Below are positions 1,700 to 45,352 of a stretch of 64,000 bases of DNA, in pieces. Position 1 is the stretch's first letter. Each line of letters begins with the position of its first letter. The stretch spans positions 1-64,000 of the forward strand of contig NC_017068.1 in NCBI RefSeq assembly GCF_000284095.1, read 5' to 3'. The notes beneath the pieces are model-generated. The model saw nothing but the letters and a program-made list of their open reading frames with translations, ran no database searches and had not been told where the DNA came from. The DNA is from Selenomonas ruminantium subsp. lactilytica TAM6421. GTDB lineage: Bacteria; Bacillota; Negativicutes; Selenomonadales; Selenomonadaceae. The translations under genes and the position numbers were made by a program.

Positions 1700-1977
1700 G
1701 ATACTCCACGCCCTTATGCACAATGAGGGCGTGGATAACTTTGTGGAAATAAAAAGTATTAACTTGTGGGCAGAATGTGGATAAATTGTTTCACGCTTTT
1801 CCCCGTGGATTATGTGGATAACTGATAGACTCTTTTTCAACAGTTTACTAACAGTCTCCTTGTCGATAAAATATGTCATGTCCGCACTTTTCCACATTTC
1901 CACAGGCCCTACTACTACTACGGCTATTTATTTATATATTTAAAGAGTAATATTAAAAAAAGAAAGGACATCGCCCC
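1700..1977. other. oriC: oriC, dnaA-dnaN unwinding region
   Basis: The gap between dnaA and dnaN holds perfect DnaA boxes at 1776-1784 and 1813-1821 and near matches at 1730-1738, 1888-1896 and 1896-1904. The last pair is followed by GGCCC, four to five CTA triplets (1909-1921) and then an AT-only tract from about 1924 to 1960. This order (boxes, GC-rich spacer, DnaA-trio repeats, AT-rich DNA) matches the basal unwinding system described for Bacillus subtilis oriC. The opening site is therefore predicted at about 1905-1960, just ahead of the dnaN ribosome binding site. The elements are visible; the unwinding role is inferred. Confidence 0.8.
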
Positions 1978-41899: not shown

Positions 41900-43165
41900 T
41901 CAACGGGTTTTGCCTACGCCAGCGCTGGGCGTAGGGGCTGAGGTTTCAGCATTGTCTGCAGCAGGAACGGACTGACGGCGGGATGGACGCGTGGTTTCGC
42001 TGGTATCGCGTTCCAAGCGTTCTTCCGTGCGGCTGCGTTCACTGCGATCAATGGTTTCCCGTTCGCCTGTACGTTTATCCGTGTCGGTCTTATCCTCGCG
42101 GCGGCGGCTCTTGCTGCTGTCGGAAGGTCTTGCTCGGCCAATAGAGGTATCGCTGGCTGGTACTTCGCTGGCGCCTGCCGGTATGCTGCTTTCGTATTCC
42201 CGGATATCCGCTTCCATCTTGGTCTTGTAACGGCCGCTCAGGGAAACGCCCAAGGTGTCTGCTACCGTCATGCGCAGCTTGTTCAGATTGGGAATCCAAT
42301 AGCTGACACCATCGATATACATGGGCTTGCCAGGGACCATATCGGTTTTGAGGCCGTTTTCCTTGGATTCCTTCAGTGTGCCGACAAACTCCAGGATCTG
42401 GCGCAGGCTCAGGTCCGTGTCGATGGATTCCATGATTTCCTTAACGACAGACGGCAGTTTGGGAATGATGGCCGGGGACAGAACCTTGTCCATGCAGGCC
42501 CGTACGAAGTCCTGCTGACGGCGGATACGGCCCAGGTCACCTTCCTCATCCCGATAGCGCACATAGGTAACGGCTTTGGCACCATCCATATGCTGCATGC
42601 CGGGCTGGAAATCGATGATGAGGCCGCCGTCATCATCCCAGGGATCTTCGTAATGCATACGTTTGGGGACGTCGATATCAATGCCGCCGATGGCATCAAT
42701 GATCTTTTTGAAAGACTTGGTGTTGATGATTATGTAGTGGTCAATATTCACGCCCAGCAGATTTTCCACGGTATCTTGGGAAAGGCTCTGCTTGCCATAG
42801 GCATAAGCTGCATTGACCTTGTCGAAGCCATGTCCCTTGATCTTTACGCGGGTGTCACGGGGCACAGACAGCAGGGATGCCTGCTTGGTCTTGGGATCGA
42901 TGGAGGCAATCATCAGGGTATCGCTGCGTCCCACATCATCGTCGCGTTCGTCCACCCCCATGATCATGATGGTGGCTTTATCCTTGGCAGTCAAAAGCTC
43001 CTCATGTTTTACGTTGGTGGTTGGTTTTTCGAGCAGGCTGTTACTGGCAAAATAAGCACCACCCAAAGCGGCACCTAAAAATACCAGCACCATGACAATC
43101 CAGGGCCAGATACGATGCTTTTTTTTCGTCTTGCGCGGTGGAATATTGGACGTTTGCAAAATCAT
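41900..43165 (-). CDS. LCP-family (LytR-CpsA-Psr) cell-wall ligase
   Basis: LCP proteins transfer polymers such as teichoic acid or capsule to peptidoglycan. The 421-residue protein has a basic cytoplasmic start, one membrane helix (about residues 20-42) and the LCP domain (about 60-285). The key charged residues are in VDERDDDVGRSDTLM, SVPRDTRV and VRYRDEEGDLGRIRRQQ. The last 90 residues are a disordered Arg/Ser/Asp/Thr tail, longer than usual. The ATG at 43165 is almost touching its AAGAAGGT site, so a TTG six bases downstream (43159) may be the real start. Promoter TTGATT-16-TATAAT lies at 43241-43214. Confidence 0.9.
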   Translation of the reverse strand: MILQTSNIPPRKTKKKHRIWPWIVMVLVFLGAALGGAYFASNSLLEKPTTNVKHEELLTAKDKATIMIMGVDERDDDVGRSDTLMIASIDPKTKQASLLSVPRDTRVKIKGHGFDKVNAAYAYGKQSLSQDTVENLLGVNIDHYIIINTKSFKKIIDAIGGIDIDVPKRMHYEDPWDDDGGLIIDFQPGMQHMDGAKAVTYVRYRDEEGDLGRIRRQQDFVRACMDKVLSPAIIPKLPSVVKEIMESIDTDLSLRQILEFVGTLKESKENGLKTDMVPGKPMYIDGVSYWIPNLNKLRMTVADTLGVSLSGRYKTKMEADIREYESSIPAGASEVPASDTSIGRARPSDSSKSRRREDKTDTDKRTGERETIDRSERSRTEERLERDTSETTRPSRRQSVPAADNAETSAPTPSAGVGKTR

Positions 43166-43320: not shown

Positions 43321-43785
43321 ATGGCAAAAGAGATTGAACGGAAATTTTTAGTTAAGGACAACTGGCAGCCCCAGGGGGCAGGTATGAAGATTGCACAAGG
43401 TTATCTGTCCACAGTGCCGGAGAGAACCGTCCGGGTGAGAATCAAGGATGACAAGGGCTATTTGACCATCAAGGGGAAGAATGAAGGCATTAGCCGGGCG
43501 GAATTTGAATATGAGATTCCCCTGCAGGATGCGGAAGCACTGCTGCGACTGGCAGAGCAGCCGGTGCTGGAAAAAACGCGCTATCTGGAAAAGCAGGGTG
43601 ATTTTCTTTGGGAAATCGATGTGTTTGCCGGTGATAACGAAGGATTGGTGGTGGCAGAAATCGAACTGCCGACGGAAGAGACCGTGTTCAGTCGTCCCAG
43701 TTGGCTCGGTGAGGAAGTTTCCGGCGATGTCCGCTACTATAATGCAAACTTAATAAAAATGCCCTATTCATTGTGGAAAAAGTGA
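43321..43785 (+). CDS. CYTH-domain triphosphatase
   Basis: This 154-residue protein is a compact CYTH domain with the metal-binding ExExK motif at its start (KEIERKFLV) and later tunnel residues (VRVRIKDDKGYLTIK, EFEYEIP, FLWEIDVF, VVAEIELP). Small bacterial CYTH proteins usually hydrolyse inorganic triphosphate or thiamine triphosphate rather than act as adenylate cyclases. The ATG at 43321 is preferred to one two codons upstream because AAAGGGTG is then 9 bases away. It stands just before the second DnaA-box cluster. Confidence 0.88.
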   Translation: MAKEIERKFLVKDNWQPQGAGMKIAQGYLSTVPERTVRVRIKDDKGYLTIKGKNEGISRAEFEYEIPLQDAEALLRLAEQPVLEKTRYLEKQGDFLWEIDVFAGDNEGLVVAEIELPTEETVFSRPSWLGEEVSGDVRYYNANLIKMPYSLWKK

Positions 43786-44162
43786 TTTTTTGTAAAGTTA
43801 TACACAGATACATGGTTATCCACAAAAAATAAGCAGGATGTTGGGGATAAAAGCACAAAATATAGCTGAATTGGCCTTGTCAAGAGGGATATATAGGGTT
43901 ATCCACGGTTTTATCCACATTATCCACAGTTGTGAGGGATTTTCTTGTAAACAAATCACACATGCTGCTTATATATTATTGTAGGAAATAGTAATGTATA
44001 GTTAATGGGTTTATATTTATCCACAACTGTGGATTATTATGTGGATAAACTGTTACATTGTATACTTTGCGCCTTGTGGACAGCAGGAATTTTGCCGTTG
44101 AGGGCGAATTTATATCAAGAATAAGGCATGATTATTGTAGCATTTATGGGAGGTGATGAGGC
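43786..44162. promoter_or_regulatory. Second DnaA-box cluster (8 boxes)
   Basis: In this 377-base gap, perfect 9-mer boxes TTATCCACA lie at 43816-43824, 43911-43919, 43920-43928, 44017-44025 and, inverted, 44040-44048. One-mismatch copies lie at 43798-43806, 43899-43907 and 44028-44036. The density matches or exceeds oriC itself, 42 kb away. No DnaA-trio repeats or long AT tract equal to the 1909-1960 region are visible, so it is more like a DnaA-titration or reactivation locus than a second origin. It may also regulate mgtC or other adjacent genes. The boxes are seen; the function is inferred. Confidence 0.8.
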
Positions 44163-44843
44163 ATGATTTCAGAATGGGAGCTTCTTCTGCGTCTGGTTCT
44201 CTCCTGTGTCTTGGGCGGAATCATCGGCTATGAACGGCAATCCCGGCGTAAATCGGCTGGTCTGCGTACGAATGTGCTGGTCTGCCTTGGCTCTTGTCTC
44301 ATCATGGTCATGTCTGTGGAGATGTATCAGGAGGTCGAGGGCAAGACAAATGCCGATCCGGCCCGACTGGCGGCGCAGGTGGTCAGCGGCATCGGCTTTT
44401 TAGGTGCCGGGGCCATCATGAAGGAAGGGCTGTCTGTAACAGGACTGACCACGGCTGCCTGCCTATGGGTGGTGGCTGGTGTAGGTTTGGCTGTAGGGGC
44501 CGGGTTCTATGCCGGGGCCCTTATCAGTACGGCGTTGGTCTTTGTGACGCTGGGCAGGCTTTCCCGTATCGATGACTGGGTGGATCATGAAAAAAATCTA
44601 TCCCTCAATATACATACGGTGGACAGGCCGGGTCAGCTCATGCGCATCAGCCGTTGTCTGGAAGACCTGCAGCTGCGGGTACGGGGGGTAAAAGTCAAAG
44701 CTGATGAGGATGAGGCTGAGGAAACCGGTGAGCGCAGCATGTATATCGATCTGGAGATTTTCAACAAGCAGAGCATCAAGAGCATCATCATTGTGGACGC
44801 TGTACGGCAGATCGATGGTGTGATCCGGGTGGATGTGGTATAG
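44163..44843 (+). CDS. mgtC: MgtC/SapB-family membrane protein
   Basis: This 226-residue protein has four or five N-terminal membrane helices (about residues 5-135) with the family signatures GGIIGYERQSRRKSAGLRT and GIGFLGAGAIMKEGLSVTGLTTAA, and a cytoplasmic ACT-like domain (about 145-226). MgtC proteins relate to growth in low magnesium and acid, and modulate ATP synthase or other partners; the target here is unknown. GGGAGGTGA precedes the ATG. It lies directly after the DnaA-box cluster, so its promoter region probably overlaps those boxes. Confidence 0.9.
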   Translation: MISEWELLLRLVLSCVLGGIIGYERQSRRKSAGLRTNVLVCLGSCLIMVMSVEMYQEVEGKTNADPARLAAQVVSGIGFLGAGAIMKEGLSVTGLTTAACLWVVAGVGLAVGAGFYAGALISTALVFVTLGRLSRIDDWVDHEKNLSLNIHTVDRPGQLMRISRCLEDLQLRVRGVKVKADEDEAEETGERSMYIDLEIFNKQSIKSIIIVDAVRQIDGVIRVDVV

Positions 44844-44935: not shown

Positions 44936-45352
44936 ATGAATCCGGAAATCGTGGATACCATGGTGCGGGCGGCTATGCAGGTGATGGATAATGCCTATGT
45001 ACCTTATGGCAAGGCGGCCATCGGCGCTTGTGTATTGGCCAGCGATGGTACCTTCTATACAGGCTGCAATATTGAAAATGCCGTGCCGCGTCTGTCTGTC
45101 TTCGCAGAGGAAGTGGCCATGTACCGGGCGGTGGCAGATGGCAAGCGGGAATTTGATGCCATTGTTGTGATTGCCGATACAGAGAGACCTTTTGTGCCAA
45201 ATGGAGCTGTCTGTCAGCTGCTGGCAGAGTTCGATGTACAGGAAATCATTATGGCGAATATGGACGGTGTGGTAGAGACCGCGAAACTGACGGATCTGTT
45301 GCCCCATGCTAAAGCGCCAATGGATAACGCCCTGCGCCCTGTAGAAGAATAA
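44936..45352 (+). CDS. Cytidine-deaminase-like protein lacking zinc cysteines
   Basis: The 138-residue protein has the length and fold pattern of homotetrameric cytidine deaminase (YVPYGKAAIGACVLASDGTFYTGCNIENA at the start of the active site). The catalytic Glu58 remains, but all three zinc cysteines are gone. The CAE motif reads FAE (Phe56), and PCxxC reads PNGAV with Asn89 and Val92; a Cys93 follows one position too late. Zinc binding as in known Cdd enzymes is not possible. It may be a non-catalytic nucleoside-binding protein or have a different chemistry. The ORF is intact with a good ribosome binding site. Confidence 0.85.
   Translation: MNPEIVDTMVRAAMQVMDNAYVPYGKAAIGACVLASDGTFYTGCNIENAVPRLSVFAEEVAMYRAVADGKREFDAIVVIADTERPFVPNGAVCQLLAEFDVQEIIMANMDGVVETAKLTDLLPHAKAPMDNALRPVEE

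Follow-up and report, generated by a model that had tools for sequence, protein, structure and literature searches.

To our knowledge, clusters of DnaA boxes outside the replication origin have been described in few bacteria. For Bacillus subtilis, the available portions of two sources describe six DnaA-box clusters (DBCs) outside oriC, and report that removing all six leads to early initiation (PMC5295017, PMC13220808). The datA, DARS1 and DARS2 loci of Escherichia coli are also non-coding clusters of DnaA boxes outside oriC; as summarised in part of PMC5295017, their function needs IHF, and that of DARS2 also needs Fis. E. coli DnaA in addition regulates nrdAB (excerpt of PMC8203912), whose promoter region brings three DnaA boxes together with a tandem of NrdR boxes (excerpts of PMC8203912 and PMC12176259). 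NrdR boxes are given in the latter source, as far as the excerpt goes, as 16-bp palindromes lying 15-16 bp apart and overlapping the polymerase site, and an excerpt of a further paper places tandem boxes 'approximately 31-32 bp' apart (PMC2892513).

The locus described here lies in the first 64 kb (hereafter the window, 64,000 nucleotides) of the 3,003,680-bp contig of Selenomonas ruminantium subsp. lactilytica TAM6421, whose genome comprises 3.63 Mb on 10 contigs. It occupies the gap between a CYTH-domain gene and an mgtC-family gene (Table 1). On balance we lean, with slightly better than even confidence, towards reading this gap as an oriC-proximal DnaA-box cluster joined to a DnaA/NrdR operator, placed before mgtC and cdd. 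Like the B. subtilis DBCs, it is a cluster of strong boxes outside the origin, near oriC and one of several on its chromosome (the B. subtilis clusters are called oriC-proximal in the available parts of PMC5295017 and PMC13220808). Unlike them, it adjoins LCP, CYTH and mgtC genes rather than the ywcI/vpr, gcp/ydiF, trmE, ywlC, yqeG/sda and yydA sites given in the part of PMC4447404 at hand, and the available portions of that literature do not mention an NrdR pair. No match to the B. subtilis regulator YabA was found in the Selenomonas genome. With the E. coli nrdAB promoter it would share the combination of DnaA boxes and tandem NrdR boxes; in contrast to that promoter, it has eight or nine DnaA boxes, lies near oriC, and is followed by mgtC and cdd rather than by a ribonucleotide reductase operon. 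Judged from sequence, we would class the element as a DBC by anatomy and as a candidate NrdR operator by spacing and sequence, not by its neighbouring gene, whereas both as a datA/DARS locus and as an oriC it fails on a feature that was looked for.

Table 1. Features of the locus and of the origin region used for comparison (positions in the window).
Feature	Position	Strand	Remarks
LCP (LytR-CpsA-Psr) gene, divergent left neighbour	41900..43165	-	PF03816
CYTH-domain gene, left neighbour	43321..43785	+	PF01928; ORF listed from 43261
DnaA box TTATACACA	43798..43806	+	TTATNCACA in 4/16 aligned sequences
DnaA box TTATCCACA	43816..43824	+	exact in 15/16 aligned sequences
NrdR-box-like site 1, 16-mer GCACAAAATATAGCTG	43853..43868	+	core CAAAATATAG, 43856-43865
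NrdR-box-like site 2, 16-mer GAGGGATATATAGGGT	43884..43899	+	core GGATATATAG, 43887-43896, 8/10
Sub-consensus DnaA box TTATCCACG, triple's first box	43899..43907	+	identical letters in 15/16
DnaA box TTATCCACA, triple's second box	43911..43919	+	exact in 16/16
DnaA box TTATCCACA, triple's third box	43920..43928	+	exact in 10/16
Conserved promoter-like block CTTATATATTATTGTAGGAA, between DnaA modules	43968..43987	+	identity 0.87-0.91, 16 sequences
DnaA box TTATCCACA, first of +,-,- module	44017..44025	+	exact in 16/16
Sub-consensus DnaA box TAATCCACA, head to head with 44017	44028..44036	-	TGTGGATT[AG] on + in 16/16
DnaA box TTATCCACA, last of +,-,- module	44040..44048	-	exact in 16/16
mgtC-family gene carrying an ACT domain, right neighbour	44163..44843	+	PF02308, PF13291
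Cytidine deaminase gene (cdd), second gene rightward	44936..45352	+	PF00383, PF08211
Comparison: +,-,- DnaA module before dnaA	180..211	+	
Comparison: DnaA-trio run CCCTACTACTACTA of oriC	1907..1920	+	

The boxes of the gap span 43798-44048. Five match TTATCCACA exactly, the one at 43798 reads TTATACACA, and three are one-mismatch boxes: those at 43899 and 44028, and another on the minus strand at 43842 (TTATCCCCA), without or with which the total is eight or nine. A preliminary description of the locus had counted eight boxes, five of them perfect, and had held their chance occurrence to be extremely unlikely; the count and the judgement are both borne out. Across the window TTATCCACA occurs 11 times against 0.44 expected by chance, a number reached in none of 100 shuffles, and all 11 sit either in this gap or at oriC. 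The chromosome carries at least 177 boxes of the strict form TTATNCACA among the matches listed (completeness of each list for one strand being judged from row order), and at that density six strict boxes within 251 bp have a Poisson probability of ~1.5e-14. When strict boxes were chained across gaps of up to 500 bp, the CYTH-mgtC gap, with six, was the densest cluster among the matches listed, every other chain, the parts of oriC included, holding at most four. Clusters of four strict boxes lie at 106.8, 121.5, 399.1 and 2821.9 kb (106780-106951, 121502-121863, 399123-399197 and 2821917-2821988; L199-L202), all within 400 kb of oriC, again among the matches listed. The last of these is just downstream of a gene for a YcbB-domain response regulator, and the same is true of a triple in another genome (G020, L196).

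Conservation within the gap follows the boxes. In an alignment of 16 sequences, consisting of the window and 15 loci (L040, L043 and L045 being omitted as near-copies of others), the columns of the eight boxes are 90.5% identical, against 57.2% for the spacer, and the weak boxes at 43899 and 44028 are conserved in their sub-consensus form. The box at 43798 takes the strict form in so few of these sequences that it is probably recent or dispensable. The preliminary description had named a lack of boxes at this place in near relatives as a finding that would refute it. The near relatives of the genome are S. ruminantium strains, and all 17 near loci (L039-L053, L058, L080) keep between four and six strict boxes. 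Eight loci from other Selenomonas species and Centipeda (L064, L066-L069, L071, L072, L118) have two to eight, two Propionispira loci have three each, and one locus titled S. ruminantium, whose mgtC is 72% identical (L061), has none. Upstream box counts for rows L009-L038 were left unused, these rows not being in a common strand orientation.

The core of the triple, allowing up to three mismatches, is present in 94 of 151 genomes of the family, and the same pattern read backwards gave no match in those 151. At least 66 of these 94 genomes have it 203-1059 bp upstream of an LCP gene, the two standing on opposite strands in every one of the 66 (LCP places being listed for 138 of the 151 genomes). 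At the level of the class, with up to two mismatches, 73 of 300 genomes have the triple, 56 of them from this family and 17 from others. Stretches around the 17 out-of-family matches showed no LCP, CYTH or mgtC gene, so that the element with such neighbours is seen only in this family. In another family the triple core recurs in several genomes (L224-L228, from G225, G199, G228, G219 and G231; L232, from G189), and at L224 and L232 it precedes a gene for a family-3 solute-binding protein. Two further families of the class have it just downstream of tsaD (L229 G264, L230 G182, L235 G332, L237 G239), a gene that we take to be the gcp of B. subtilis. The part of PMC4447404 at hand (Table 1 there) places a strong DnaA region of that organism 'downstream of gcp; downstream of ydiF'. 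The DnaA cluster beside tsaD could be of great age; a tie between it and the present locus was rejected, the tsaD gene of our strain being flanked by 1.5-kb stretches free of exact boxes. Genus g42 (L189 G131, L262, L275-L277) stands out for an unusually large number of boxes, ahead of LCP as well as in other places.

When the elements are aligned at their triple, two AT-rich blocks appear upstream of it, at the fixed positions -43 and -12, a pair that the preliminary description had overlooked. In one genus both blocks read CTATATATTG. That sequence matches the NrdR-box core, acaCwAtATaTwGtgt, a consensus that was brought in only once the repeat had been seen. The second site starts 31 bp after the first and touches the first DnaA box of the triple; the spacing is that published for tandem NrdR boxes, and the two cores together depart from consensus at two of 20 positions, the second core, at 8/10, being weak in this genome. 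The genome encodes an NrdR protein scoring over the curated cut-off, with Zn-ribbon and ATP-cone domains. When the two-core pattern at 31 bp was searched against all 3.63 Mb, the best place, with one mismatch, was found to precede nrdD (NRDD and ATP-cone domains) at ~827 kb, which thus carries a pair of its own, and the CYTH-mgtC gap was one of three distinct places with two mismatches. At three mismatches there are 16+14 matches, near the 8+4 of the reversed-pattern control. Independent support for an NrdR identity comes from the published spacing and from the nrdD control, which is a single promoter. NrdR-like pairs also stand beside box groups at 2635669-2635786 (L204) and 399123-399255 (L201), with scores of 17/20 that are near background; that of L204 is also a three-mismatch match in the genome-wide scan.

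The pair was scored in 96 elements drawn from fetched loci only, excluding our own loci L199-L206 and triples near locus ends. Sixty-six of these are distinct elements with LCP, CYTH or mgtC within 1.5 kb (a set separate from the 66 genomes with a triple upstream of LCP), and 30 are triples elsewhere. Both cores score at least 8/10 in 58 of the 66 and in none of the 30; shuffling the upstream 60 bases gave 0.04 qualifying pairs on average, and at most one. Among the 64 elements in which both cores score at least 7, their spacing is 31 bp in 49, 30 bp in 14 and 32 bp in one. A sample of 78 mgtC loci (L039-L118, minus two with less than 500 bp upstream) shows boxes and pair to be present or absent together: at a pair score of at least 17 and two or more strict boxes, 26 loci have both, one has boxes alone, none has the pair alone and 51 have neither. 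With a stricter score of 18, the pair is found upstream of mgtC at 17 of the 78 loci, against none of 74 downstream control stretches. Background in the window is not negligible, with five distinct places where both cores score at least 8 (three in the reversed window), of which that at 43856 is the best, at 18, the others scoring 16-17. Covariation of the two cores within genomes gave a value reached by 317 of 5000 shuffles.

Downstream of the triple, the boxes of the +,-,- module at 44017, 44028 and 44040 are offset by 11 and 12 bp, as are those at 180, 191 and 203 before dnaA. Unlike the present locus, the dnaA upstream region has no NrdR-like pair (cores of at least 8/10, 30-32 bp apart), none occurring in the initial 20 kb of the window. 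With up to four mismatches in total, the module recurs in 38 of the 66 elements, its middle box being weak; its distance from the start of the triple is 98-149 bp, and for 23 of these 38 it is 117-119 bp. The block CTTATATATTATTGTAGGAA, which is conserved and situated between the two DnaA modules, could be a -10 region; a weak -35/-10 match falls at 43948-43977, and a promoter search of the gap returned no strong promoter. Neither an RNA family at gathering score (Rfam scan of 41.5-45.5 kb) nor folding better than that of shuffled sequence in a possible leader at 43975-44165 (z -0.68) was detected.

The element is not bound to any single neighbour, and persists where LCP, CYTH, mgtC or cdd is absent from its side. 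Among the 66 elements, LCP lies leftward in 55 and CYTH leftward in 46, LCP alone adjoins the element in five, and mgtC and/or cdd follow rightward on the plus strand in 55. In the remaining 11 neither mgtC nor cdd was recognised rightward, short flanks perhaps accounting for some of these; one target gene therefore does not explain the persistence of the element. Of 20 non-LCP places fetched (from 58), 11 are just downstream of a same-strand CYTH gene, LCP having no match in the stretches concerned, and six of these 11 have no mgtC match either. That the boxes serve LCP only is rejected by the seven genomes in which the element is at CYTH and LCP is elsewhere (L268-L272, L279, L280), the 3 kb upstream of LCP being devoid of exact boxes in all seven. 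That they serve mgtC only is rejected as well, given their absence from 51 of the 78 mgtC loci and the existence of elements without mgtC. In many loci of genus g13 and of rumen MAGs among L054-L117, mgtC follows CYTH almost without a gap, and there are neither boxes nor an NrdR pair; the triple core was found in none of the g13 genomes searched.

The preliminary description had placed the cluster 42 kb from oriC, and the DnaA-trio run of the origin agrees with this distance. In 13 of the 14 genomes where element and dnaA share a contig, they are 3-61 kb apart, on either side (G071, G029, G011, G005, G152, G003, G134, G138, G098, our own, G146, G110 and G155, that for G134 assuming a closed circle); the exception is G062, at ~420 kb. 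Thirteen of 20 genomes examined had the element on the dnaA contig, and G071, where CYTH and the element are only ~3 kb from dnaA (L183), was added after a chance sighting. Around oriC, however, genes tend to keep their order in any case, and so proximity by itself is moderate evidence.

There are several other explanations for these results. That the gap is a second or former replication origin is suggested by its AT-richness, by the module it shares with the dnaA upstream region, and by a doubled trio in 22 of the 66 homologous elements. The true oriC, however, is bipartite around dnaA, and the CTA run of the dnaA-dnaN gap is kept in 21 of 21 genomes, with at least three repeats in 18. Around our triple (~43749-44127) there is not even a doubled trio, and a run of three occurs in none of the 66 elements. 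The earlier view that the cluster lacks trios is thus upheld, and its companion, that a clear unwinding tract is also lacking, needs qualification, the gap being 65% AT against 62% for the dnaA-dnaN gap. Every 4-kb bin between 4 and 64 kb shows positive GC skew, with no switch, which argues against a second origin, and we regard this reading as extremely improbable. Hardly more probable is a datA- or DARS-like locus that alters the nucleotide state of DnaA. Strong and weak boxes clustered near oriC would fit it, but the E. coli loci depend on IHF (part of PMC5295017), and a search confined to IHF-alpha (TIGR00987) found no match over the cut-off, the best score being 73.7 bits against 120.25.

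Two further explanations were considered. According to one, the gap is purely an oriC-proximal DBC that titrates DnaA and delays initiation, its neighbours and the AT-rich repeat being irrelevant. The survival of the element after the loss of each neighbour in some genus, the parted LCP genes without boxes, the few elements with LCP alone, and the short distance to dnaA on varied sides all favour such an explanation, as do the further four-box clusters, which form a set as in B. subtilis (available parts of PMC5295017 and PMC13220808). It leaves unexplained, however, why an NrdR-like pair is found with 58 of the 66 elements but with not one of the 30 other triples, and why the pair is present at 26 of the 27 mgtC loci with boxes and at none of the other 51; one review, in the part available, also doubts that the B. 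subtilis clusters have a significant role in initiation (PMC5295017). We consider the pure DBC possible, though not probable. According to the other, the gap is an ordinary local operator, at which DnaA alone represses mgtC or LCP, and the AT-rich blocks are -10 and -35 elements rather than NrdR boxes. Promoter-like blocks are indeed present, and in some genera TTGACA-16/17-TATGGT, read by eye, overlaps the second core. A promoter alone, though, does not predict a pair of similar cores spaced by 30-32 bp, nor the recurrence of that pair ahead of nrdD, and we think the ordinary operator quite unlikely.

Our preferred reading, the cluster joined to a DnaA/NrdR operator, agrees in part with the preliminary description, which had proposed a datA, DARS or DBC-type locus or regulation of the flanking genes. 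The DBC type is supported by anatomy, conservation, proximity to oriC and the absence of trios, the datA/DARS type is not, and regulation of the flanking genes is plausible and has been strengthened by the tandem of NrdR-box-like sites that is joined to the cluster. Under the preferred reading, DnaA would bind the upstream triple (43899-43928), the downstream module (44017-44048) and the box at 43816, and NrdR would bind the two tandem boxes abutting the triple. By analogy with the E. coli nrdAB promoter, the element would act first as an operator, and both inputs would bear on mgtC and cdd in this species. Cytidine deaminase is part of pyrimidine salvage. The cluster of strong sites near oriC may also hold DnaA, as proposed for the B. 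subtilis DBCs, and since removal of those leads to early initiation, the element may contribute to DnaA titration. Within the collection searched, we found no paper on the oriC of S. ruminantium, on NrdR in Selenomonas, or on the NrdR regulon together with DnaA; for NrdR and cytidine deaminase there was, judged from the portions available, only apparently unrelated work.

A bolder version of the composite, which we consider unlikely, is that it is a coupling device, in which dATP-bound NrdR beside the triple would alter the amount of DnaA held there or its oligomer state. Such coupling would explain how the composite survives while its neighbours change, and, if true, the dNTP pool would set the timing of initiation directly, independently of the flanking genes. 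Under the DnaA/NrdR operator that we prefer, a target outside the nrd genes, mgtC-cdd in this species, would be added to those of NrdR. The composite would place the controls of DnaA and of dNTPs in a single 200-bp stretch, away from the ribonucleotide reductase genes.
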